DNA of 64,000 bases, taken from the NCBI RefSeq assembly GCF_008326305.1, contig NZ_BIXY01000014.1, forward strand, positions 1 through 64,000, in the 5' to 3' direction. Below the pieces are notes generated by a model, which saw only the letters and a program-made list of their open reading frames with translations, had not been told where the DNA came from and did not search any database. Position numbers and translations under genes: made by a program. Every line of letters begins with the position of its first letter. The stretch's first letter is position 1. Source of the DNA: Dictyobacter arantiisoli. Lineage in GTDB: Bacteria; Chloroflexota; Ktedonobacteria; Ktedonobacterales; Ktedonobacteraceae. Positions 9,439 through 21,593 of this stretch are shown one piece after another.

Positions 9439-11124
9439 CTATTGGATAGTCATTTCCTGATCTTTCTTTTCGTTCGCCTCATCGACGGATGGCGTAAGCA
9501 GTTGTTTGGCTCGTTCCAGACCGATAGAGAGCAGCAAGGTGGGAATACGTGGTCCCGTGTCTTTACCGCAAATGAGCGTATAGAGTGCAACAAAGAAAGA
9601 GCGCTGCGCCTGCTTGAGCTCATCGTTGGGAGGCGTATCAATATCCATGCCGCGTACGATCTTGGGAATGCTGTACATCAATGAGGTCAGATCATGCAGA
9701 TTCCACGAAGTATCCAGGCGCTCGGCGAGCATGCGAATGCTGGCCTGATCCATCTCTACGAATTGCGCAAAGGCTTCACTATTAAAGTGTTCGCCGATCT
9801 GCGTGCGCTCATCATCTGGCAGATAATTATTGACCCAGTTTAAGGCACAGGTGAAACGTGGCTCAAGTTGTTCGCGTAGCACAACCTGACCATCCGCTAC
9901 CTCTGGCAACGTCTGGGAGATGATGCGCAAGACTTGCTCCTCATTCGCCTGTGTGACGTCGATGACAGAGGTCAGCAGTGGGAAGGGAACGGGATGATGG
10001 GTATAGAGAATCTCCTCGCTTACTGTCCTGGTAGCACGCTCGAATAACCTCTGATTGCTCTCATTGGCCGCCCCTTTGGCGATCTGCCGAACCAGCGCAT
10101 CCCACTCCTCATAGAGGCGCAGCAAACCCTGACCATAGTCGATCTCAAAGGCTTGATTATTGGCACGGCGCGCATAGAGCCAGCGCAGAATCGCAGGCTC
10201 GATAATATTCAGGGCCGAAGTGACGGTCGCGGTAGTACCAGCCGAGCTTGAAATCTTGGAACGTCCACCCATGCCGACAAATGCATAACCAATGAACTGT
10301 GGGGCTTTCCAGTTATACAACTGGACAATACGCTGTCCAACGGTATAGCTGCTACCAGGGGAGGAATGATCCTCACCGCCGGGCTCGAAGTCCACCTGCT
10401 CATAGCTCCAGCGCATCGGCCAGTCAATTTTCCAGGCCAGCTTGCCATCCACCTTGTCATTCAGGCTATAGCCAGACTCGTGTCCACAATTATCACAGAC
10501 ATACGTAAAAGAGGCATCCTCATCACGATAACTGGTGAGGTGCGTCATATCCTTATGGCAGTTTTCACAATAGGTCTTAAAAGGATAATAGGCGGCGCGG
10601 CGATCTTCAACCGATTCTTTCTGACCTTCCAGATTCTGATACTCGGCCAGAATATCGAAGATCTCAAAACGCTGGCGGATCGCCTGTTTGATCTGCTCGA
10701 CATAATCACCACGGCGATAGGCTTCCGATTGGCGCACAAAACGTGGATGCACACCTAAACGATCCAATCCGGCGGCAAAGTCGCTGATATAGCGCGTCGC
10801 ATACGAATCGTATTCGCCAAAGGGATCAGGGATATCGGCGTATGGCATGCCAATATATTGCGCAAAGTCAGCGGGGGTACCAGCTGGCACCTTGCGCAAG
10901 CGATCATAGTCGTCCCAGGAATGGATATGATCGACTTTCCAGCCACGTCCACGCAATTCTTCCGCGACCAGATGAACGGTCATAGGCTCGCGCAGGTTGC
11001 CCAGATGGATAGGACCAGAGGGACTAATACCCGATGCACACACAATAGTGGCATCCTCACCTTTACGCTGCCGCACACTGGCTTCTACACGGTCAGCTAC
11101 TTTTGTAACCCAATCAGCTTTCAT
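9439..11124 (-). CDS. lysS: Class I (archaeal-type) lysyl-tRNA synthetase
   Basis: 561 residues. It charges tRNA-Lys with lysine. The class I signatures are present: the HIGH-type motif PSGPIHLGNLRE near residue 35 and the KMSKS-type KISSSAG near residue 290. A zinc-ribbon insertion with two CxxC pairs (CENCH and CDNCG) lies between them near residues 190-220, as in archaeal and spirochaete LysRS-I. The class II enzyme used by most bacteria is not seen here. It follows the lysine operon on the same strand, but a terminator at 11307-11341 separates them, so it probably has its own promoter in the 11125-11306 gap. Confidence 0.93.
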   Translation of the reverse strand: MKADWVTKVADRVEASVRQRKGEDATIVCASGISPSGPIHLGNLREPMTVHLVAEELRGRGWKVDHIHSWDDYDRLRKVPAGTPADFAQYIGMPYADIPDPFGEYDSYATRYISDFAAGLDRLGVHPRFVRQSEAYRRGDYVEQIKQAIRQRFEIFDILAEYQNLEGQKESVEDRRAAYYPFKTYCENCHKDMTHLTSYRDEDASFTYVCDNCGHESGYSLNDKVDGKLAWKIDWPMRWSYEQVDFEPGGEDHSSPGSSYTVGQRIVQLYNWKAPQFIGYAFVGMGGRSKISSSAGTTATVTSALNIIEPAILRWLYARRANNQAFEIDYGQGLLRLYEEWDALVRQIAKGAANESNQRLFERATRTVSEEILYTHHPVPFPLLTSVIDVTQANEEQVLRIISQTLPEVADGQVVLREQLEPRFTCALNWVNNYLPDDERTQIGEHFNSEAFAQFVEMDQASIRMLAERLDTSWNLHDLTSLMYSIPKIVRGMDIDTPPNDELKQAQRSFFVALYTLICGKDTGPRIPTLLLSIGLERAKQLLTPSVDEANEKKDQEMTIQ

Positions 11125-11306
11125 GTCTCAACTATCTCCAGATTATAGCTCGCGTAAGCTTATGTTTTTTCTTGATGCTCATTTTATCAGTTTAGCTTGC
11201 AATAGTCTTTATGACAGGGCAAGAATTGCTATAAGGGGATTACCTTGATCACACATCTACACTGCGAGCAGTTTCTATAGCGAGCCTCATGACCTGTACA
11301 GGACAG

Positions 11307-11341
11307 CAAAAAGCCTCAGGCCGAGGGGAAGGCTTGAGGCT
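11307..11341 (-). terminator. Intrinsic terminator of the lysine operon
   Basis: On the minus strand AGCCTCAAGCC pairs with GGCCTGAGGCT and is followed by TTTTTG. It lies 37 bp after the homoisocitrate dehydrogenase stop and before lysS. Confidence 0.8.
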
Positions 11342-11377
11342 AATCGAAAAACGTAACAGGTCTTCTTCTACAACTAG

Positions 11378-12469
11378 CTAATTCCTCGGCAAACGCGCCG
11401 TGATCGCCTGTACAAATTCCGTTGTACCGGCCTGCCCGCCTTGATCGACTGGCAGCAGAGATCCGTCCCGATAGGTTTGTTCAATCGCGGTCTCTAAGGC
11501 ACGTGCCTCTTCATTATACCCCAGATAAGCAAGCATTTGCGCGCCCGATAATAACATAGCGGTAGGATTAATAATACCCTTGCCAGCCAGATCAGGGGCC
11601 GAACCATGGACTGGCTCGAAGTAGGCATAGTGCTCACCATAGCAGGCACTGGGAGAAAGTCCCAATCCACCAATAGTCCCACTGGAAACATCAGCCAGGA
11701 TATCGCCGTGCTCGTTGCCCAGCACCACAACATCCAATGTTTCCGGTGAAGCTACCAGACGCCGGGCCATATCATCAACCAGAAATTCTTGATAAGTCAA
11801 ACTCGGATGCTGACTGACAGCCTCTTTGACGAGCGTACGGAAGCGTCCATCGGTGCGGGGCTGGATCGAATATTTCGCGCCCAGCGTCACGCGACCGGGA
11901 TAGCCCGCCTGCTGACGCTGCAACGCCAGTTCACAGGCATAGGCCGCCACCCGTTGCATCTGTTCATCCGTGCTGACTTTGATAGAATAGGCTCCAACCT
12001 TATCAACTGGAGGAGCCATCCACCAGGAGCTACTGCTGGTCAGGGTCGCCAGTTCCGCCACATCACCCTCACGTGGCGGATACATACCTTCCAGATTATC
12101 GCGTGCAATCACATAGTCGATACGCTCTGGATTGAGCATAGGACTACGATAACCAGGAATCCAGCGTACCGGACGCACGTTAATAAACGTCTCTTTATTC
12201 CAGCGCAGATACCAGAGAATCGGACGGCTGGGTCCGCCGCTGGCCCCAAACAATGTACAATCGGCGTTATCGATAGCCTCTCGCGTCACGTCGGGGAACG
12301 GCGTTCCATACTGCGCCTGTGCCTCACGGCCACAGGGCGCTTCGACAAAATTGATCGAAGGAGCCAGGCGCTGCAAAATCTCGACGGTGGGACGCATCAC
12401 CTCGGGGGCCGCGTCATCGCCAGGAATCACACACACAGTCGGGGGATTTTGGAGTTGACGCTGGCTCAT
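11378..12469 (-). CDS. Isocitrate/isopropylmalate dehydrogenase family, probable homoisocitrate dehydrogenase
   Basis: 363 residues of the beta-decarboxylating dehydrogenase family. The family elements are an N-terminal IPGDDAAPEV, the substrate region YVIARDNLEGMYPPREG, and the C-terminal NEHGDILADVSSGTIGGLG and FEPVHGSAPDLAGKGIINP blocks. The latter holds metal-binding acids and the NAD site. In this operon, with homocitrate synthase and homoaconitase, it should oxidatively decarboxylate homoisocitrate to 2-oxoadipate. Sequence alone does not exclude isopropylmalate dehydrogenase. It overlaps the small homoaconitase subunit by 4 bp (ATGA), indicating translational coupling. The GAKYSIQPRTDGRF block differs from the usual AN-V/L-K arrangement and is somewhat divergent. 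Confidence 0.85.
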   Translation of the reverse strand: MSQRQLQNPPTVCVIPGDDAAPEVMRPTVEILQRLAPSINFVEAPCGREAQAQYGTPFPDVTREAIDNADCTLFGASGGPSRPILWYLRWNKETFINVRPVRWIPGYRSPMLNPERIDYVIARDNLEGMYPPREGDVAELATLTSSSSWWMAPPVDKVGAYSIKVSTDEQMQRVAAYACELALQRQQAGYPGRVTLGAKYSIQPRTDGRFRTLVKEAVSQHPSLTYQEFLVDDMARRLVASPETLDVVVLGNEHGDILADVSSGTIGGLGLSPSACYGEHYAYFEPVHGSAPDLAGKGIINPTAMLLSGAQMLAYLGYNEEARALETAIEQTYRDGSLLPVDQGGQAGTTEFVQAITARLPRN

Positions 12470-12954
12470 CGCAGGGTTCCTTCCATCTCAATGTAATTGA
12501 TAATGCCACCTGCGGCTACGATACGTGCCACAAAGGGATCAAGCGGCTCGGCCTGGAAGGTCTGGCCGGTGGTCAAATTGCGGATCTCACCAGTCTCCAG
12601 ATTGACATCCAATTCCTGACCATCCTCACTGTTCAGTACCGCCTCTTCGCAGACCAGCACCGGCAATCCAATGTTGACGGCATTGCGATAGAAGATACGT
12701 GCAAAGCTGCGTGCAATGACAACTTTGACTTTGTTAGCGAGGATGGAGGTCGGTGCATGCTCACGCGAGGAGCCACATCCAAAGTTATGACCGCCTAAGA
12801 CGATATCCCCGGGTTTCACCTGCTGCGAGAATTCAGGATAGGCCTCATATAAACAATATTTGGCTAACTGTGCATGATCGGTCGTGACATTATACCGTCC
12901 AGGAATGATCAGGTCGGTATTAATATTGTCTCCAAGTTTCCAAATGCGCCCCAT
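12466..12954 (-). CDS. lysU: Homoaconitase small subunit (LeuD/LysU type)
   Basis: 162 residues, the swivel subunit of a heterodimeric aconitase-family hydro-lyase. The substrate loop GRYNVTT (about residue 19) and the strongly conserved GGHNFGCGSSREHAP block near residue 55 are present. With the large subunit it would isomerise homocitrate to homoisocitrate through homoaconitate. The loop after the conserved Tyr determines substrate length in this family; NVTT is not the typical isopropylmalate YLVY form, which is compatible with homoaconitase but not proof. It sits 48 bp after the large subunit gene and overlaps the dehydrogenase by 4 bp. Confidence 0.87.
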   Translation of the reverse strand: MGRIWKLGDNINTDLIIPGRYNVTTDHAQLAKYCLYEAYPEFSQQVKPGDIVLGGHNFGCGSSREHAPTSILANKVKVVIARSFARIFYRNAVNIGLPVLVCEEAVLNSEDGQELDVNLETGEIRNLTTGQTFQAEPLDPFVARIVAAGGIINYIEMEGTLR

Positions 12955-13002
12955 AATACTCTGTTCCTTTCGTTGCTATGGCTGTGTTGAGCCGGTTACG
13001 AC

Positions 13003-14271
13003 TTATGCTCTGCTCTCTTCAAGTAAGATAGCGCGGGGATCGGTGATATAGCCGGTCAACGCGGTTGCCGCAACGGTGGCGGGGCTACCCAGGTAGATCT
13101 CAGCGGTAGGATCGCCCATGCGACCAGTAAAATTGCGATTCATGGTAGTCATTGCGCGCTCGCCGGGAGCCAGTACACCAAAGTGGCGTCCAATGCAGGG
13201 TCCACAGCCAGGCGTACCGACTGAAGCGCCAGCCCGGGAGAAGATTTCTAGATATCCCAGACGCATCGCCTCAAGATAGATCTCACGCGAGGCAGGAATT
13301 ACGACCATGCGGATATCGGGGCTAATGGTGCGTCCAGCCAGGATACCAGCCGCGATCTCCAGGTCATCCAGACGACCATTGGTGCAGGTGCCCAGGAAAA
13401 CCTCATCGATCTTGACGTTGGTCACCTCTTCCGCCGGATGAACGATATTGACATCCGGTGGGCAGGCCACCAGGGGTTTGAGATTAGTAACATCAATCTC
13501 AATTACACGCTCATAATGAGGATTCACCGCTCGCAAGAGAGGATATTCCTGATCGGTACGGCCCTGCAGCCAGGCGCGTGTCGTCTCGTCGGCGGCGATC
13601 AGGCCAGCCTTGCCGCCCATCTCGATAGCCATATTCGAGAAGGTCATACGCTCGCTCATCGAGAAGTTCTCAATCACCTCACCGGTATATTCGATGGCGC
13701 GATAATTGGCTCCATCGACGCCCAGATGGCGTACGATCTCCAGGGATACGTCTTTGGCGTAAACACCGGCGGGCAGAGTGCCTGTAATGTTGACATTGAT
13801 GGTCTCAGGGACGCGGAACCAGCTCCGGCCGGTCGCATAGGCCACACCGATATCGGTGGAACCCATACCAGTTCCAAAAGCTCCAAAAGCGCCATACGTA
13901 CAGGAATGGCTATCAGCACCGACAATCACGCTGCCCGGCACGACAAAACCTTTCTCCGGCATCACCTGATGGCAGATACCCTCTTGTAGAATGGAAATAT
14001 CCTGCTCTTTGGCGAAGTTACGCACCTCGCGATGGAGGGTCGCGGCGGCAATCGTCGCAGCCGGAATGATATGGTCAAAGACAATATGCGAACGCTTGCT
14101 ATCAAATACCTTGCCCGTTTTTTGTCCAGTCAATTTCGCAAAGGCTTTAATCGCCAATGGAGTGGTCGTATCATGGCTCATGACATGATCGACATCTACC
14201 ACAACAGTTTCGCCCGCATGAACAGGACGACCTAATTTGTAACTAAAGATTTCTTCGGCTAGCGTTCCCAT
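13003..14271 (-). CDS. lysT: Homoaconitase large subunit (LeuC/LysT type)
   Basis: 422 residues, matching the short LeuC2/LysT class. The [4Fe-4S] ligands are visible as Cys in FLGTCTNGR (near residue 300) and the CxxC pair in TPGCGPCIGR (near residue 360). VGADSHSCTYGAFGAFGTG and NRNFTGRMG are further family blocks. It forms the catalytic half of the homocitrate to homoisocitrate isomerase with the downstream small subunit. Its start overlaps the homocitrate synthase stop by 13 bp, so the two are translationally coupled. Leucine-pathway isopropylmalate isomerase is the main alternative, disfavoured by context. Confidence 0.88.
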   Translation of the reverse strand: MGTLAEEIFSYKLGRPVHAGETVVVDVDHVMSHDTTTPLAIKAFAKLTGQKTGKVFDSKRSHIVFDHIIPAATIAAATLHREVRNFAKEQDISILQEGICHQVMPEKGFVVPGSVIVGADSHSCTYGAFGAFGTGMGSTDIGVAYATGRSWFRVPETINVNITGTLPAGVYAKDVSLEIVRHLGVDGANYRAIEYTGEVIENFSMSERMTFSNMAIEMGGKAGLIAADETTRAWLQGRTDQEYPLLRAVNPHYERVIEIDVTNLKPLVACPPDVNIVHPAEEVTNVKIDEVFLGTCTNGRLDDLEIAAGILAGRTISPDIRMVVIPASREIYLEAMRLGYLEIFSRAGASVGTPGCGPCIGRHFGVLAPGERAMTTMNRNFTGRMGDPTAEIYLGSPATVAATALTGYITDPRAILLEESRA

Positions 14272-15407
14272 ACCAGACTCCCTTTCTCTGCATACCAGTC
14301 ACGGATAAATGTATTTACTTCATCGTCGCTTAAAGATCCCGCCTCGGCATGCTCTTTAATAGCCTGCGTCAGATGTGACACCTCTTCAGCGGTAAGTTGA
14401 AATCCCAGTGAGACAGCGCGATGACCCACGGCGTAGCGGCCCGTAAAGCGCGAACCAACATCGACATGACGCACAATCCCAAAGTCAGTAGGATTCAATA
14501 TTTCGTAGGCATTCGGATTGCGTAGCACTGCTTTTGTGTGCACTCCCGCACGATGCGTGAAGGCGTTGGGAGCAGTGATCGGCATGTTATAAGGAATAGT
14601 GATATTTAAGCTATCAGCAACATATTGATCCAACTCAACCAGGCGAGTGACATCATACGTTGCCAGCTGATCAGGATGATGAATATAGAGTTGCGAGATA
14701 ATACCACTCAAGGATGCAATACCATTGCGCTCACCAATGCCCATCACGGTCACATCCAGACAATCAGCGCCCGCCTCGTAGGCGGCGATGGTGTTGGCGA
14801 TAGCACAGCCGGTATCATTATGTCCATGAAACTCGATGCCAACCTGTGGATAGCGACTGGCGATCAGGCTAACCAACCGGTCAACCTGACGTGGGGTTGC
14901 TATACCAACAGTATCCGGCAAACCAATACGTTCGACACCGGCATCGACAACCGCATCGAAAACCGTCAGCAGATCCACCAGATCGCTACGGAAGGCATCC
15001 TCAGCGGAGAAGCGTACATAGCGACCAGCTTCGCGGATACGGCGGATCAGCGGAACCGCTTCATGGGCAATCTGTTCAATCCCACGTCCATGGCTGAATG
15101 AGCGCAGTTCAGTAGAGGTACCGAAGAAGAGGTTCAGGCCATAGACGTCTGTCTCCAGAGCGGCCTGCACATCGGCCTCAGCACAGCGCACATGCGCCAC
15201 AACGTGCGATTTCAAATGTAAGTCACAAATAGCCTGGACAGCTTCACGCGTCTCAGGAGACGCAATAGGAGAGGGTACCTCGATAAATGTCACCCCGATC
15301 TGATCCAGTAAGCGAGCGATGTTCAGTCGCTGCTCCAGGGTGAAAAAGGTTTTGATAAACTGCTCCCCCTCGCGCAAGGTGCTATCAAGAATAGCTGGTG
15401 ATCTCAT
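14259..15407 (-). CDS. hcs: Homocitrate synthase
   Basis: 382 residues from the ATG at 15407; a longer frame to 15476 would overlap the upstream gene and adds an untypical leader. It condenses acetyl-CoA with 2-oxoglutarate, the first step of the aminoadipate pathway. The DRE-TIM signature LDSTLREGEQF is at the N-terminus, and the metal-binding HGHNDTGCA and the VMGIGERNG motif follow. HRAGVHTKAVLRNP matches the C-terminal region of homocitrate synthases. The lack of a long LeuA-type regulatory domain (about 500 residues) separates it from alpha-isopropylmalate synthase. The stop overlaps the homoaconitase large subunit start. Confidence 0.88.
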   Translation of the reverse strand: MRSPAILDSTLREGEQFIKTFFTLEQRLNIARLLDQIGVTFIEVPSPIASPETREAVQAICDLHLKSHVVAHVRCAEADVQAALETDVYGLNLFFGTSTELRSFSHGRGIEQIAHEAVPLIRRIREAGRYVRFSAEDAFRSDLVDLLTVFDAVVDAGVERIGLPDTVGIATPRQVDRLVSLIASRYPQVGIEFHGHNDTGCAIANTIAAYEAGADCLDVTVMGIGERNGIASLSGIISQLYIHHPDQLATYDVTRLVELDQYVADSLNITIPYNMPITAPNAFTHRAGVHTKAVLRNPNAYEILNPTDFGIVRHVDVGSRFTGRYAVGHRAVSLGFQLTAEEVSHLTQAIKEHAEAGSLSDDEVNTFIRDWYAEKGSLVWER

Positions 15408-15454
15408 GATGCTTTTTCCCTTTGTGATGCAATAGTATACGTTTCTGACTGCAT

Positions 15455-17752
15455 TTAAATGGTATTCAGAACGCATTCGAGCACATCAATAGCATGGGTA
15501 TATTCGGCCACACGTATATGTTCCTGAGGGGTATGATCGAGGCTTGAGTCTCCCGGCCCATAAGCCACCATATTCTGTCCCCAATGCGGACCTACGACAT
15601 TCATATCCGATGTTCCCGTTTTATATTTAAAAGTGGGCTGTTCTCCTGTGGCTCGAATAGCTGAGATAAAGGCTCGGGCCAGGGGAATGGCACGTGTTGT
15701 CTGATAGGCGACCTCTTCACCGGAAAAGGTCAGATGAACATCGTCTTCCAAGGCCCAACGCTGCAATTGTGTTCGCAAGTTGGCAATATCCAGATTGGGT
15801 GGAAGGCGATAGCTGATCGTAAAGCTTGTGCGCTCCGCCAGACCATCCTGCTCACTATTGATGGTCAGGAGGGCGGGCAACAGGGCTGCGAAGGACGACT
15901 TGCCAGCATGCTCTTGATTCCACTCATCGGCATGGCGGCGGACTCGTCCCCAGAAGGCGGCAGCGATTTCATTGCTCCGTTGCAAGGGTCCCGCGCTATG
16001 GCTGGATTGCTGTGTGACACAACCATCTAATAACAGGCGGCCTTTATACCCGATCGTGACCGCCTGACTGCCACTCGGCTCCCCAATGATGCAGGCCGAG
16101 GGTTGATAGCGCTTGATGACGCCCCGTGCGCCTCGTGAGGTCGCTGCCTCCTCTTCTACCGCACCTACAACCACAACAGGTCGTGAGTGGCCTCCCTGAC
16201 GCGCTACGCGGGCCGTAGCGCAGACGAAAGCCGCCAGTGGACCTTTAGCATCCACCGCGCCACGCCCATAGAGAATACCATCCTCCAGGCGAACCGGTAT
16301 ATTGCCAGGCACGGTATCCATATGTCCCAGCAGGACCACCGGTTGTTGATCCGTAATCTCGGCATGTGTGCTGGCGACAAAATTGCCTACCTCATCGACA
16401 TAAGCATGCAAGCCCATCTGTCGGGCTTGCTCAACCATAAAATGGGCCAGCGCCCCTTCGTGGGTAGAAAGGCTGGGAATAGTGAGCATCCGTTGTAAAA
16501 GCGCAACTTCCGCCGTGGGGGATGAGCTTTCCTCATGTGTCTCTGCGACGGATTGCGTTTCGCGCTCAGGATTTGGAGTCGCCCCCAATACCTCGGCGAC
16601 AATATCCAACGCCCGGTCAAGTTGGGCTTCAGTGATGACCAGCGGAGGCAAGAGTCGCAGTACATTGGGTCCAGCGGGCAGGGCCAAAACTCCACGCTCG
16701 ATCAATGCTTCGAGATAGGGCTGGACACGTTTCTTTAACTCAATGCCAAGCAACAAGCCCAGGCCGCGTACCTCGCGGATCACAGGAGATTGCAGAGCTT
16801 GCAGACGCTTCAGGGCATGTGCTCCAAGCGCAGCGGCCCGTGCGGGCAGATCTTCCTGCTCAAAGATATCCAATGTTGCCAGCGCGGCGGCACAAGCGAG
16901 GGGATTTCCCCCAAAGGTGGTGCCGTGTGAACCCTTTGAGATATGTCCACTCTCCATGACGCGTGCTCCCAGACCAATCGCTCCCATGGGAACACCACCG
17001 GCAATGGATTTCGCCAGACACAGGATGTCGGGCTGGACGCCATATTGCTCGCAGGCAAAGAGGGTGCCGGTCCGACCAAAGCCGGTCTGCACTTCATCGA
17101 TAATTAAGAGTGCGCCGCGCTCGTGGCAAAGGGCCGCCAGTCCCTGTACGTAGGCTTGCTGACCGATATGCACGCCACCCTCGGCCTGAACCAGTTCAAT
17201 GATCACAGCCGCTGTATGTTCAGTGATCGCCGCTTCAGCCGCCGTCAGATCGTTATAGCGGATATGCGAGACATCTGGGATCAGGGGCGCGAATGGTTCA
17301 CGATAATGTTTTTCCCAGGTCGCTGAAAGCGCGCCCATGGTTCGACCATGGAAGCCGCGTAGCGTCGCTACGATGCCGGTGCGTCCGGTCGCCAGACGTG
17401 CGAATTTTAATGCCCCCTCAACCGCTTCAGTACCACTGTTACAGAGGAAGAAATGCGAGAGTCCCTCCGGTGTTACCTGTACCAGGCGCTCAAGCAAACG
17501 AGCGCGTACATCATTATAGACAATTTCAGGGCAGGTAATCAGCCGTTGGGCCTGAGCGGCCAGCGCGGCAGCGATCTCTGAACGACCATGGCCGATATTA
17601 GCCACTCCATGGCCCGCCGCGCAATCGATATACTCTCGTCCCTCAGCATCCCACAGTATCGCACCCTGACCGCGTACAATAGCTAGCAAACGCTTCCCGT
17701 AGACACCGCTGGTGTAGGTATCCTCTTGTTCAATAATTGTTGTTGTGCTCAT
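15455..17752 (-). CDS. lysJ-lysK: Fusion of LysJ (LysW-lysine aminotransferase) and LysK (LysW-lysine hydrolase)
   Basis: 765 residues, two enzymes in one chain. Residues 1 to about 390 are a class III aminotransferase of the ArgD/LysJ type: FFLCNSGTEAVEGALKFAR, LIIDEVQTGFGRTG, and the PLP lysine in LAKSIAGGVPMGA. A Glu/Ser/Pro-rich linker (about 392-412) follows. Residues about 413-765 are an M20 metallopeptidase of the LysK/ArgE type: LLGHMDTVPG (His, Asp), GRGAVDAKGP, the catalytic EEE of VGAVEEEAATSRG, and GEPSG. The parts would convert LysW-aminoadipate semialdehyde to LysW-lysine and then release lysine. These are the last two steps of the pathway and are usually separate genes. Ornithine formation by the same protein is possible. 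Confidence 0.9.
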   Translation of the reverse strand: MSTTTIIEQEDTYTSGVYGKRLLAIVRGQGAILWDAEGREYIDCAAGHGVANIGHGRSEIAAALAAQAQRLITCPEIVYNDVRARLLERLVQVTPEGLSHFFLCNSGTEAVEGALKFARLATGRTGIVATLRGFHGRTMGALSATWEKHYREPFAPLIPDVSHIRYNDLTAAEAAITEHTAAVIIELVQAEGGVHIGQQAYVQGLAALCHERGALLIIDEVQTGFGRTGTLFACEQYGVQPDILCLAKSIAGGVPMGAIGLGARVMESGHISKGSHGTTFGGNPLACAAALATLDIFEQEDLPARAAALGAHALKRLQALQSPVIREVRGLGLLLGIELKKRVQPYLEALIERGVLALPAGPNVLRLLPPLVITEAQLDRALDIVAEVLGATPNPERETQSVAETHEESSSPTAEVALLQRMLTIPSLSTHEGALAHFMVEQARQMGLHAYVDEVGNFVASTHAEITDQQPVVLLGHMDTVPGNIPVRLEDGILYGRGAVDAKGPLAAFVCATARVARQGGHSRPVVVVGAVEEEAATSRGARGVIKRYQPSACIIGEPSGSQAVTIGYKGRLLLDGCVTQQSSHSAGPLQRSNEIAAAFWGRVRRHADEWNQEHAGKSSFAALLPALLTINSEQDGLAERTSFTISYRLPPNLDIANLRTQLQRWALEDDVHLTFSGEEVAYQTTRAIPLARAFISAIRATGEQPTFKYKTGTSDMNVVGPHWGQNMVAYGPGDSSLDHTPQEHIRVAEYTHAIDVLECVLNTI

Positions 17753-17788: not shown

Positions 17789-18661
17789 TTAACTGAGCGA
17801 TACCATTTCGCGTACCACTGTGTGGACAGGCTCAAGCTGGTTCGCTGCTTCTTCATGTACAGTATGGGCAATCATGGTGCCAGCGCCGTTGACGACATCC
17901 TGTAGCGAGGCGCTACCGATGCAGACGCGCTCAACGCCGCCCTGCAAGGCTTCCTGGGCTCCTAGCAGTTTTTTACGCATACGCCCTTTGGCATAACTCA
18001 TATAGGTCTCTAGTTGATCGGCCGGAATCGTACGGATCAGCGTTGAGGCGTCCTGGGGATCTGCCAGCAGGCCCGCAACGTTGGTCATAATGACCAGGGA
18101 CTCGGCATGCAGGGCAGAGGCAACAGCGGCTGCGGCCCGGTCTCCATCCACGTTCAGGCGCTCGCCCTGATGGCTCAAGGCCAGCGGTGCGATTACCGGC
18201 GTATAACCGGCATCCAGCAGATATTCCAGCAGTCCACTATTGACCTGCTCGATCTGGCCGGTATAGTCGTCGCGCAGGATCTGTACCCGTCCCTCAGGTG
18301 TAACGGAACGTACGACAGCTTTACGACGCGCTACCAGCAAACGGCCATCCACCCCGGCCATACCAAAGGCATTGACGCCCTGCTGCTGGAGCTGCGCCAC
18401 CAGATCGGTGTTGATCTGTCCCGCGACCGCCATCGCAAAGATCTGCAAGGTCTCGCTATCGGTATAGCGGCTCGTCATACCGCTGGGCGATGTGATCATA
18501 CGCATTGGATGTCCCAATTGCTCGGACAGAGTATTGGTCAGATCAGAGCCGCCGTGCAACAGCACCACGCGTTGCCCTTCAGCGACATAGCGGGCGATTT
18601 CCTGCACAATATTGGCTGTAGCGACGCCCGCGCCTCCGCCAATTTTTACCACCAGTGTCAT
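17789..18661 (-). CDS. lysZ: LysW-aminoadipate kinase
   Basis: 290 residues of the amino acid kinase family (ArgB fold). It phosphorylates the side-chain carboxylate of LysW-bound aminoadipate. The N-terminal VVKIGGGAG, the HGGSDLTN nucleotide/substrate region, and LNVDGDRAAAAVASAL and MTNVAGLL near the C-terminal half are the expected blocks. The early SPSGMTSRYTD region corresponds to the substrate loop of LysZ/ArgB proteins. Context (lysW, lysX, lysY) points to LysW substrates rather than free N-acetylglutamate. It lies 36 bp before the LysJ-LysK fusion. It may also use LysW-glutamate for arginine synthesis. Confidence 0.9.
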   Translation of the reverse strand: MTLVVKIGGGAGVATANIVQEIARYVAEGQRVVLLHGGSDLTNTLSEQLGHPMRMITSPSGMTSRYTDSETLQIFAMAVAGQINTDLVAQLQQQGVNAFGMAGVDGRLLVARRKAVVRSVTPEGRVQILRDDYTGQIEQVNSGLLEYLLDAGYTPVIAPLALSHQGERLNVDGDRAAAAVASALHAESLVIMTNVAGLLADPQDASTLIRTIPADQLETYMSYAKGRMRKKLLGAQEALQGGVERVCIGSASLQDVVNGAGTMIAHTVHEEAANQLEPVHTVVREMVSLS

Positions 18662-18753: not shown

Positions 18754-19815
18754 TTAGACGGGATGCAGACCGGGGAAGGTCAGGCCCAATGACTCATCCC
18801 AACCAAACATGCAGTTCAAAGCCTGTACACCATTGCCAGCCGCGCCCTTCATCAAATTATCCAGGGCTGCGATCACTACCACGCGCTGCTGCTCACGATC
18901 GACTTCAAATCCGACATCGCAATAGTTGCTGCCGGAAAGGATCTTGGGCTCGGGATAGCGATAGACGCCGTTGCGCTCTTTCACCAGGCGTACAAAGGGT
19001 TCGCGCTGATAGGCTTCGCGGAAGATACGCCAGATGGCTTTCTCTTCCAGGTTCTCATTTAAGAACACATGGGCCGTCACCAGGATGCCGCGTACCATTT
19101 CAACCGCGGTAGCCGAGAATGCCACCATCTGCTGGAGTTCGCCGCCCTCAAACTGTCCCAGTTCCTGAATCAGCTCAGCCGTATGTCGGTGGCCGGTTGG
19201 CTCAAACGAGCGCACCGCCCCACTGCGATCTGGATGGTGGCTGGATGGTCCAGCTTTAGCACCAGCTGCCGATGAGCCAACCTTGGCCTCCAGGACCAAC
19301 GGAATGGATTGATTTACGACACCAGCCCGGTAGAGCGGGGCCAATCCCAGGATCGATGTGGTTGCCATACAGCCGGTACCGCTGACCAGTGCTGCTTCAG
19401 GCAACTCGGCCCGATGCAATTCTGGCAGTCCGTAGACTGCTTCGCTCAACAATTCAGGTGCTGGATGCTCATGTCCATACCAGCGGCGATACAGATCCGG
19501 TGTGCGCAGACGGAAATCTCCAGAGAGATCAATCACGCGGGGAGCCAATGTGCGATAGCGTTCAATCTCACCCGATGAAACACCATGTGGCAGGCAGAGA
19601 AACAAGACATCGCACGTTGTCAGGTCGTCGGGATGACAGAAACGCAGAGTGCTAATCTTGCGCAGGTTCGGATGGGCGCTATGCACAAAATGTCCGGCCT
19701 GGCTGCCCGAAGCAACCTGACTGATCTCAACCATTGGATGGAAGAGCAACAAACGGATCAATTCGCCACCAGTATAACCGGAACCGCCAACAATGGCGAC
19801 ACGCACTCGACTCAT
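18754..19815 (-). CDS. lysY: LysW-aminoadipyl phosphate reductase
   Basis: 353 residues of the ArgC-type semialdehyde dehydrogenase family. The N-terminal Rossmann [15 protein letters not shown], the catalytic Cys in [18 protein letters not shown] (near residue 150), and the [13 protein letters not shown] and [16 protein letters not shown]-terminal blocks are conserved. It reduces LysW-aminoadipyl phosphate with NADPH to the semialdehyde that LysJ then aminates. It overlaps lysX by 4 bp and is 92 bp upstream of lysZ. Sequence alone cannot separate LysY from ArgC; the neighbours decide. Confidence 0.9.
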
Positions 19816-20675
19816 AACGCGACCCCTTCATGAACACTGCTTACAACATACTCGATCATCTCTTGTGGAATGTTGACACCGGTAGGAGCGATACTATTGC
19901 GGAACTCCATGGTGGCGTTGATCTCATTGACCAGCAAACCGCGCTCAGGATCTTCAAACACATCCACAGCCAGTATGCCCCCTCCAACCGCTTGCGCCGC
20001 CTGTACACACAGGCGATCCAATTCCGGGGTCACGGGACAATTATCTGTCACCGCTCCACGCGCTGTATTGGTCACCCAGTGCTCACTATGGCGATAGATC
20101 GCGCAGGCCGTACGGCCTCCCAGCACAAAGGCGCGAATATCGCGGTTCGGCTTGTCGATGTGTTGCTGAATATAATGAATGTGATGCTGTACTGATCCCA
20201 ATGTTTCAGCGTGCTCAAGCACCGCTTCAGCCGCGTCACGATCATTGATCCGGGCCAGCAACCGTCCCCAGGAACCACTGACGGGTTTGAGGACCGCGGG
20301 ATACCCTAATGTCTCGATACCCTCAATCGCATGCTCGGCATCAAAGGCCAGCATGGTGCGGGGAACCGGTATGCCAGCGCGTTGTAGCGCCAGCGTTGTC
20401 AATAACTTATCGTTACAAAGAGCGGTGACGGCGGCCGAGTTAAAAACAGGGATGCCCCAATGCTCCAGTACGTGTAAGACAGCCAGGCCACGAGACTGAC
20501 TCACGCTACGGCAGAGCACGGCATCATAGGACTGCCAGCGCTCCTGCGGCTGCGCCAGATCGAATAACAACTCACCATCATCAATCAAGTCGAAATCGAT
20601 TGAGCGCTGTCGCAACGCTTCCACCAACAATTTCTCTTCCACGCGAACGCGCGATGTCAGAATAGCCAGGCGCAT
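19812..20675 (-). CDS. lysX: LysW-aminoadipate ligase (ATP-grasp)
   Basis: 287 residues from the ATG at 20675, with GGGGAGAG 8 bp upstream; an upstream in-frame extension would overlap lysW. It is an ATP-grasp ligase of the RimK/LysX type that joins the alpha-amino group of aminoadipate to the C-terminal Glu of Lys[16 protein letters not shown] is the ATP-grasp glycine-rich region, and [22 protein letters not shown] holds the metal-binding Glu and Asn. The gene begins 4 bp after the lysW stop, so carrier and ligase are made together. A dual LysX/ArgX activity is possible because no separate ArgX is visible here. Confidence 0.92.
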
Positions 20676-20679
20676 AGGG

Positions 20680-20844
20680 TTACTCTCCCCAATCTTCCTC
20701 GACCTCAGGGGCCAGGGCAACTTCAGGATGCTCTACATTCAGAACTTCCAACTCTGCATTACAGTCCGGGCAAAAGGTAATCTCGCCCACAATCAAATTC
20801 TCAACTTCAACCGCTGCTTCGCATTCTGGACAAACTGCTGACAT
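20680..20844 (-). CDS. lysW: LysW amino-group carrier protein
   Basis: 54 residues, start ATG at 20844 (GAGGAG nine bases upstream; a second in-frame ATG at 20853 is too close to that site). Two CxxC pairs (CPEC at 5-8, CPDC at 25-28) form the zinc-binding globular part. The acidic tail ends in EEDWGE, the diagnostic EDWGE terminus whose last Glu receives aminoadipate. LysW protects the amino group and presents intermediates to LysX, LysZ, LysY, LysJ and LysK. It is the first gene of the operon and lies only about 60 bp after the proximal T-box terminator. Confidence 0.95.
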
Positions 20845-20900
20845 AATCTTCATCTCCTCTTTAACTGATCTTCAACTGCTTTTACCGCCAAATTTTCGGT

Positions 20901-20936
20901 ATAAAAAAAAGCCCTTCATCCCCTTGTAAGGACGAA
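20901..20936 (-). terminator. Terminator of proximal T-box
   Basis: On the minus strand CTTCGTCC pairs with GGATGAAG and is followed by GGGC and eight T. It mutually excludes the antiterminator helix involving AGGGTGGTACCACGAG (20951-20966). Confidence 0.85.
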
Positions 20937-21190
20937 GAACAAATATTGTTCTCGTGGTACCACCCTCGTTCACCCACACATTGCTGTATGAGCCTCAATG
21001 TACAGAGCAGCATTGCTGTTCTGTACTGACCCGCTAACGGAGGTCCACCGACAAAGTTCTACTTTCGCTGACGCGATTTCTTCTTGTAGCTTAGGGTTCT
21101 TATTCACGGAATGGACATACGAGCTTTCCACCAGCTGCTCGCTCTCTAGATGTACCAGAGTCCGTTACTTATCCCTGCATCGCTTGCATC
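20901..21190 (-). promoter_or_regulatory. T-box leader, proximal copy (lysine)
   Basis: The T-box sequence AGGGTGGTACCACGAG (20951-20966) and the downstream terminator are textbook. Upstream it has the stem I elements GGATAAGTAACGG, AGAGAGCGAGCAGCTGGTG (AG bulge and GNUG-type loop) and the specifier region GTGAATAAGAACC. The most likely specifier is AAG (Lys), matching the downstream operon. Between stem I and the antiterminator it shares a long, nearly identical block (AAGAAGAAATCGC, TCAGCGAAAGTAGAACTT) with the distal copy. Uncharged tRNA-Lys should stabilise the antiterminator and let RNA polymerase proceed into lysW. Confidence 0.9.
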
Positions 21191-21239
21191 TCTATGATTT
21201 GTTATGTACGCATTTCCTTTTAAAAGGAGATGTCTCGGA

Positions 21240-21558
21240 CATACAAAAAACCCTTCATCCTATCAATCAGGACGAAGAGTGTTGTGCTCTCGTGTTGCCA
21301 CCCGGGTTCATTGATATCTCACGATATCAACCTCAGCAAGTATATAATCTGTGTATATTACTTATATACTCTTAACCTGTTACGGAGGTCACCGGCCAAG
21401 TTCTACTTTCGCTGATGCGATTTCTTCTTGCAGCTTCAGGTTCTTATTCACGACCGATTAACGTGTAGAATTTTCACCAGCTATCTACTCTCTGTCCGCA
21501 ATGGATGGTCGTTACTTGTCCTATCAAAGCCTGTCTCTATGCGGTTGTTTATTGACTT
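21240..21558 (-). promoter_or_regulatory. T-box leader, distal copy (lysine)
   Basis: Minus-strand leader beginning just after the promoter at 21565-21593. It has the stem I elements GGACAAGTAACGACC, AGAGAGTAGATAGCTGGTG, and the same specifier context GTGAATAAGAACC (AAG at 21443-21445). The T-box proper is CCCGGGTGGCAACACGAG near 21287-21305. Its own terminator follows at 21243-21277, then the second T-box begins about 55 bp later. No convincing second promoter is seen between them, so both appear to act in series on one transcript. Confidence 0.88.
21243..21277 (-). terminator. Terminator of distal T-box
   Basis: Minus strand CTTCGTCCTG pairs with an AGGATGAAG arm (loop ATTGAT) and runs into GGGTTTTTTG. 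It is nearly the same hairpin as in the proximal copy. Confidence 0.85.
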
Positions 21559-21564
21559 GTGCTA

Positions 21565-21593
21565 GTTATAACATGCAGTATTCTCATTGTCAA
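21565..21593 (-). promoter_or_regulatory. Sigma70-type promoter of the lysine operon
   Basis: On the minus strand TTGACA (21588-21593), a 17-bp spacer, and TATAAC (21565-21570). Transcription would start near 21557, exactly ahead of the distal T-box stem I. Confidence 0.8.

Follow-up and report, generated by a model that had tools for sequence, protein, structure and literature searches.

The 64-kb window analyzed here (the whole stretch of 64,000 nt from Dictyobacter arantiisoli) has a leader region upstream of a lysine biosynthesis operon that resembles two T-box RNAs placed one after the other. The locus raises the question of whether these are two complete T-boxes that act in series on one transcript, and whether the two read the same signal.

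Two T-box units in the leader of the lysine operon

The two units are on the reverse strand, and the positions of leader and operon features are listed in Table 1. In a covariance search both match the Rfam T-box model RF00230 over its full length (model positions 1–219), with E-values of 9.5e-19 for unit 1 and 2.9e-18 for unit 2. This bears out the sequence-only reading of the locus, which had proposed two units with a full set of elements. The matches come from a scan by E-value. The default Rfam scan applies the RF00230 gathering score, 93 bits, which neither unit reaches, and it accordingly lists no match in the window; of the 19 T-boxes of the whole genome, 16 likewise fall below this score. 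The lysine riboswitch (L-box, RF00168) has no match in the 64-kb window.

Table 1. Features of the tandem T-box leader and of the genes downstream, in window coordinates.
Feature	Position	Strand	Evidence or remark
Promoter TTGACA-17-TATAAC	21565–21593	-	28 nt 5' of unit 1
T-box unit 1 (Stem I, Stem II, IIA/B, Stem III, antiterminator)	21265–21536	-	RF00230, 85.4 bits
Unit 1 specifier AAG (Lys), context GAA-U-AAG-A	21443–21445	-	Rfam alignment
Unit 1 T-box bulge UGGCAAC	21294–21300	-	C unable to pair with A73 of tRNA-Lys
Unit 1 intrinsic terminator	21250–21280	-	13 pairs, then T-run
T-box unit 2, complete	20925–21189	-	RF00230, 83.5 bits
Unit 2 specifier AAG (Lys)	21099–21101	-	RF00230 alignment
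Unit 2 T-box bulge UGGUACC	20956–20962	-	Pairs with A73-C-C-A
Unit 2 intrinsic terminator	20911–20940	-	13 pairs, then eight T
lysW (amino-group carrier protein)	20680–20853	-	TIGR01206, 51.8 bits (cut-off 53.2); Pfam PF21344 above cut-off
lysX, start codon uncertain	19812–20720	-	TIGR02144, 342 bits
lysY (ArgC/LysY-type reductase)	18754–19815	-	TIGR01850, 383 bits
lysZ ([LysW]-aminoadipate kinase)	17789–18661	-	NF010659, 340 bits
lysJ-lysK fusion (transaminase and [LysW]-lysine hydrolase)	15455–17752	-	NF042418, residues 6–389; NF003367, residues 413–764
Homocitrate synthase, homoaconitase large and small subunit, and homoisocitrate dehydrogenase type genes	11378–15476	-	TIGR02146, hacA_fam, HacB/LeuD, LEU3_arch
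253-nt gap with terminator-like hairpin AGCCTCA...TGAGGCT-TTTTT	11125–11377	-	After the lysine genes
Class I lysyl-tRNA synthetase gene	9439–11124	-	PF01921, 358 bits; TIGR00467, 353 bits

The specifier is AAG in both units, as the sequence-only reading had it, and the context GAA-U-AAG-A is the same in each. For most of the other T-boxes of this genome that have an identified gene, the register GAA-N-SSS yields the correct amino acid. Both units display the distal elements of Stem I, which are also present in the family alignment, i.e., AGAGAG (the AG bulge) and UGGUG (the GNUG loop). A Stem II block and a T-box bulge are likewise present in each, and each has a separate 13-pair terminator followed by a T-run. 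Terminator energies in Dictyobacter are alike for the two units, here -17.0 and -17.1 kcal/mol; several other genera have a first terminator that is weaker than the second. The full-model match, a lysine specifier that fits the lysine operon, and a terminator with a competing antiterminator place both units among the T-boxes, and with one promoter upstream of two complete units that share a specificity, the leader represents a tandem T-box.

Base changes in related sequences maintain the modeled stems. Eleven of the 13 pairs of Stem I are changed on both sides, with 94.5% of cells paired compared with 77.3% in shuffles (32 units), and the antiterminator is 96.8% paired with double changes in six pairs of the family alignment. 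As these alignments also served to derive the structures, the absolute percentages are biased towards them, but slid controls are far lower. In units whose 3' arm has CCUG, the outer pair of helix A1 has changed in step, with C-G in place of A-U.

Conservation and age of the duplication

LysW was searched for in the D. arantiisoli genome and in 60 related genomes, and the lysW loci were then scanned for T-boxes. Two T-boxes precede lysW in all 22 family loci that are fully assessable, the present locus included; three further family loci are cut by contig ends and were left out of this number. The tandem is found by name in Dictyobacter vulcani, D. aurantiacus, D. kobayashii, Tengunoibacter, Ktedonobacter racemifer, K. 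robiniae, Ktedonospora and Thermogemmatispora, in each with a unit-level match in both the Stem I and the T-box models. Wherever specifiers of family units were read they are lysine specifiers, AAG with a few AAA. Outside the family, a single T-box is present before lysW in three Chloroflexota genomes, two from the same order (G030, G036) and one from the same phylum (G060).

The sequence-only reading had noted almost identical blocks in the two units and attributed them to duplication. Origin by duplication is supported, but the near identity is local. It applies to the Stem II block, which the units share, whereas Stem I, the Stem II–III region and the T-box/terminator part are 60–63% identical overall. 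A Stem I tree was built on 109 columns only, and many of its branches are open. On it, the labels for first and second units require 4 changes compared with 11.2 in shuffles, and therefore the two kinds of unit appear to have descended for the most part independently from a duplication that took place no later than the family root. A recent duplication was rejected on the basis of this tree and of the tandem in 22 of 22 loci. In two genera (g4 and g8) the 3' halves of the two units are 94–97% identical within a genome, as against 70–79% for Stem I, which is best read as gene conversion. As judged from these alignments, the family is no older than the duplication, and the copies were apparently part-homogenized by gene conversion later in some genera.

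Downstream operon and lysyl-tRNA synthetase genes

The genes behind the leader are in the order lysW-lysX-lysY-lysZ-lysJK-hcs-hacA-hacB-hicdh, in agreement with the earlier proposal of two units in series before a lysW operon. LysW is 1.4 bits below the TIGR01206 cut-off, and its Pfam LysW domain is above its own cut-off. The lysW, lysX, lysY, lysZ, lysJ and lysK functions of the LysW pathway are all present, together with homocitrate synthase and homoaconitase; the presence of the latter two indicates that the pathway is that of lysine and not arginine. Gaps between the genes are short or the genes overlap, except for 92 nt between lysY and lysZ. The lysJ and lysK genes are fused in a single reading frame of 765 aa that carries the transaminase and the hydrolase.

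The class I LysRS gene starts 253 nt past the last lysine gene. It is situated behind a terminator-like hairpin with a T-run, and therefore its control by the twin T-boxes is only a possibility. The possibility that the class I LysRS gene has a T-box of its own was rejected, as its loci across the family show none. The single match there (L207) represents a T-box upstream of the homoisocitrate dehydrogenase gene of D. vulcani. This is an extra antiterminator (UGGU-AAC, L207:44-98) shortly before that gene; in the same species, the class I LysRS gene gives matches in two adjacent pieces. Linkage of the class I LysRS gene behind the lysine operon is restricted to Dictyobacter and Tengunoibacter, the same lineages that have UGGC-AAC in unit 1; in other family genera the gene is unlinked or was not found.

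The sequence-only reading had considered the class I enzyme alone. This has to be corrected, as a class II LysRS is encoded elsewhere in the genome (C27:16449-17909, 582.8 bits, above the curated cut-off). No T-box is present in the 1.5-kb surroundings of the class II gene. The two LysRS genes would conform to the rule of Foy et al. (PMC2916919) only on the condition that the class I gene is co-transcribed with the operon.

The T-box bulge of unit 1

A UGGN sequence that matches the tRNA discriminator base and is followed by ACC is usual, although not universal, in T-boxes. Both tRNA-Lys species of the genome (CUU and UUU) have A73. Unit 2 with UGGU-ACC conforms to the usual pattern. Unit 1 departs from it at two positions, with UGGC opposite A73 of both tRNAs and AAC in place of ACC. 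Discriminator pairing, either Watson-Crick or wobble, is possible in 18 of the 19 T-boxes of the genome and unit 1 is the sole exception. The other T-boxes serve Leu, Val (two), Ser, Phe, Met, Ile, Pro, Trp, His, Arg (three), Gly, Asp and Thr (two), where four (L005, L007, L009 and L015) are assigned by specifier with little or no gene support and some registers were read by eye. L015 (C1:229995-230167) is a probable glycine T-box with the specifier GGC, situated before a gene with a class II anticodon-binding domain; its UGGG can form only a wobble pair with U73 of tRNA-Gly.

UGGN is the tetranucleotide that pairs with NCCA, and stabilization of the domain is ascribed to ACC (PMC7583486); wobble is tolerated (PMC7778990). 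The A-C mismatch of unit 1 is neither a standard pair nor a tolerated wobble. Its likely effect would be a higher threshold for unit 1. UGGC-AAC is fixed in unit 1 of five Dictyobacter genomes and Tengunoibacter. UGGC-ACC is present in unit 1 of one further genus (G006), and UGGC is never found in unit 2 in the family alignment. A tRNA-Lys with G73 was rejected as the cause of UGGC, as all tRNA-Lys genes found in Dictyobacter and Tengunoibacter have A73. The UGGC-AAC bulge may make the Dictyobacter unit 1 a weaker reader of tRNA-Lys, with a threshold that differs from that of unit 2 and is probably higher. By descent and structure unit 1 is a T-box; that it reads the charging of tRNA-Lys is a weaker claim.

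Proposed mechanism and alternatives

The two structures, their specifiers and terminators, the single promoter, the operon and the conservation are all properties of the sequence, and they indicate that the leader is very probably a tandem transcriptional T-box in which two serial termination decisions gate the lysine operon. For tRNA binding, antitermination and behavior in series we infer the following. RNA polymerase would start at the one promoter and meet two independent termination decisions. The anticodon of tRNA-Lys would pair with AAG in Stem I of each unit, and only with an uncharged 3' end would NCCA pair with the UGGN bulge, so that the antiterminator is held and the terminator prevented. 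Transcription of lysW and the lysine genes would require passage of both units, with read-through approximately the product of two probabilities. As both must be passed, a lower leak and a steeper rise as tRNA-Lys charging falls would follow, and the steeper response is a reasonable expectation for two serial units. Antitermination in series with multiplied read-through agrees with what has been proposed for tandem T-boxes (PMC12452182). A point against the model is that unit 1, with UGGC opposite A73 and AAC in place of ACC, might antiterminate less well; the operon would then depend on the leak of terminator 1.

The sequence-only reading had already proposed a single promoter. The site before unit 1 has p about 0.01 compared with shuffles, and the best site in the linker between the units has p 0.34. 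A promoter of the type TTGACA/TTGACT-17 to 19-TATA is found 22–36 nt before unit 1 in all 22 tandem loci (p 0.00–0.04 compared with shuffles in each). The alternative is that each unit has its own promoter and that the two represent alternative leaders. Room for a second promoter is available in five of six Thermogemmatispora loci, where the linker is 169–234 nt, and one Ktedonobacter linker has a weak site (p 0.04). However, the linker is about 54–88 nt here and in the other non-Thermogemmatispora genera, and across the 22 loci the best linker sites mostly do not exceed shuffles and show no recurrent position or sequence. With the promoter before unit 1 present at every locus, separate promoters are extremely unlikely. 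The sequence-only reading had named three outcomes that would speak against it, i.e., a covariance score for one unit only, a specifier other than AAG or AAA, and a promoter between the units, and none of them was found.

The mismatched bulge of unit 1 bears on what is read by the first of the two serial decisions. Unit 2 might be the sole sensor of tRNA-Lys, with unit 1 in this genus reduced to an attenuator, decayed or fixed, whose only effect is a constant-factor drop in transcription. The mismatch with A73 in all tRNA-Lys genes examined in Dictyobacter and Tengunoibacter is consistent with this. Decay, however, would be expected to cost unit 1 some of its parts, and in five Dictyobacter species and Tengunoibacter it keeps the Stem I parts, AAG, the pairing of the antiterminator (including the compensated A-U to C-G change in helix A1) and the terminator; a passive unit 1 is unlikely. 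Unit 1 might instead answer another uncharged tRNA with G73, such as tRNA-Asn (GUU), and the leader would combine two signals. UGGC can pair with G73, tRNA-Asn carries G73, and in Bacillus cereus the lysK T-box responds not only to tRNA-Lys but also to uncharged tRNA-Asn (PMC2916919). An Asn codon is included in the AAGAAC of unit 1 in this genome and two others, but this AAC codon is not conserved in three of the six UGGC-AAC loci, unit 2 with UGGU also has an AAC codon in the window, and the C of this codon would need to leave the Stem I helix. A tRNA-Asn signal is thus very unlikely. A broader reading is that the units are not redundant and that unit 1 of Dictyobacter and Tengunoibacter was retuned at the acceptor-end contact. 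The serial gate would then respond at two different thresholds of uncharged tRNA-Lys, or it would take two different inputs, tRNA-Lys and a G73 tRNA such as tRNA-Asn. This reading is tentative and rather improbable.

A tRNA-Ala gene within the leuS T-box

A separate observation was made outside the window. In the leuS T-box leader (L001:1501-1839, L053; C19:36387-36984), Stem II and the antiterminator are separated by a complete tRNA-Ala(GGC) gene that includes CCA, and a tRNA-Ala(CGC) gene is situated just upstream. The nesting is found throughout the family, with the tRNA-Ala(GGC) gene inside a T-box match of 79–110 bits in all 18 related loci tested. Release of this tRNA by processing would sever the leuS specifier domain from the antiterminator. 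A literature search found no paper on a tRNA-Ala gene nested in a leuS T-box. In our view, this arrangement is stranger than the twin lysine T-boxes.

Relation to known systems

Tandem T-boxes of Bacillota (trp, branched-chain and thrS operons; PMC12452182) also consist of two complete serial units for the same amino acid, each with a specifier and a terminator. The present leader differs in that it concerns lysine, the LysW pathway and Chloroflexota, is found family-wide, and has a non-pairing UGGC in unit 1 of one clade. The sequence-only reading had called tandem T-boxes on this pathway uncommon. This holds for lysine, as Lys specifiers are among the rarest in TBDB (PMC7778990), whereas the tandem arrangement in general is well established (PMC12452182). 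Of the lysine specifiers in TBDB, AAG is the one used less often (PMC7778990); it prevails among the lysine T-boxes of this family.

The lysK T-box of B. cereus (PMC2916919), which controls a class I LysRS, is likewise lysine-specific, and that genome also has both LysRS classes, with the other LysRS lacking a T-box. There, a single unit is directly before lysK; here, twin units precede biosynthesis genes and the class I LysRS gene is past a terminator-like hairpin. T-boxes of the same RNA family and phylum are those of Dehalococcoides ileS, trpE and trpB, and no lysine or tandem T-box was found among the Chloroflexi cases in the accessible part of that source (PMC2494555). The lysine riboswitch (L-box, RF00168) is also a leader RNA on lysine genes, but its ligand is lysine itself. 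A literature search for a T-box with LysW or Ktedonobacter gave nothing relevant; the founding T-box surveys may mention lysine tandems.

The leader extends a known tandem arrangement to a new pathway, amino acid and phylum. Tandem T-boxes have been documented mainly in Bacillota, and the 22 loci of this family provide natural paired lysine switches that bear on the purpose of tandem riboswitches. The conserved bulge mismatch of unit 1 is the part worth an experiment. It makes the strictness of the discriminator-base rule testable, in that one copy obeys the rule and its neighbor on the same transcript does not.
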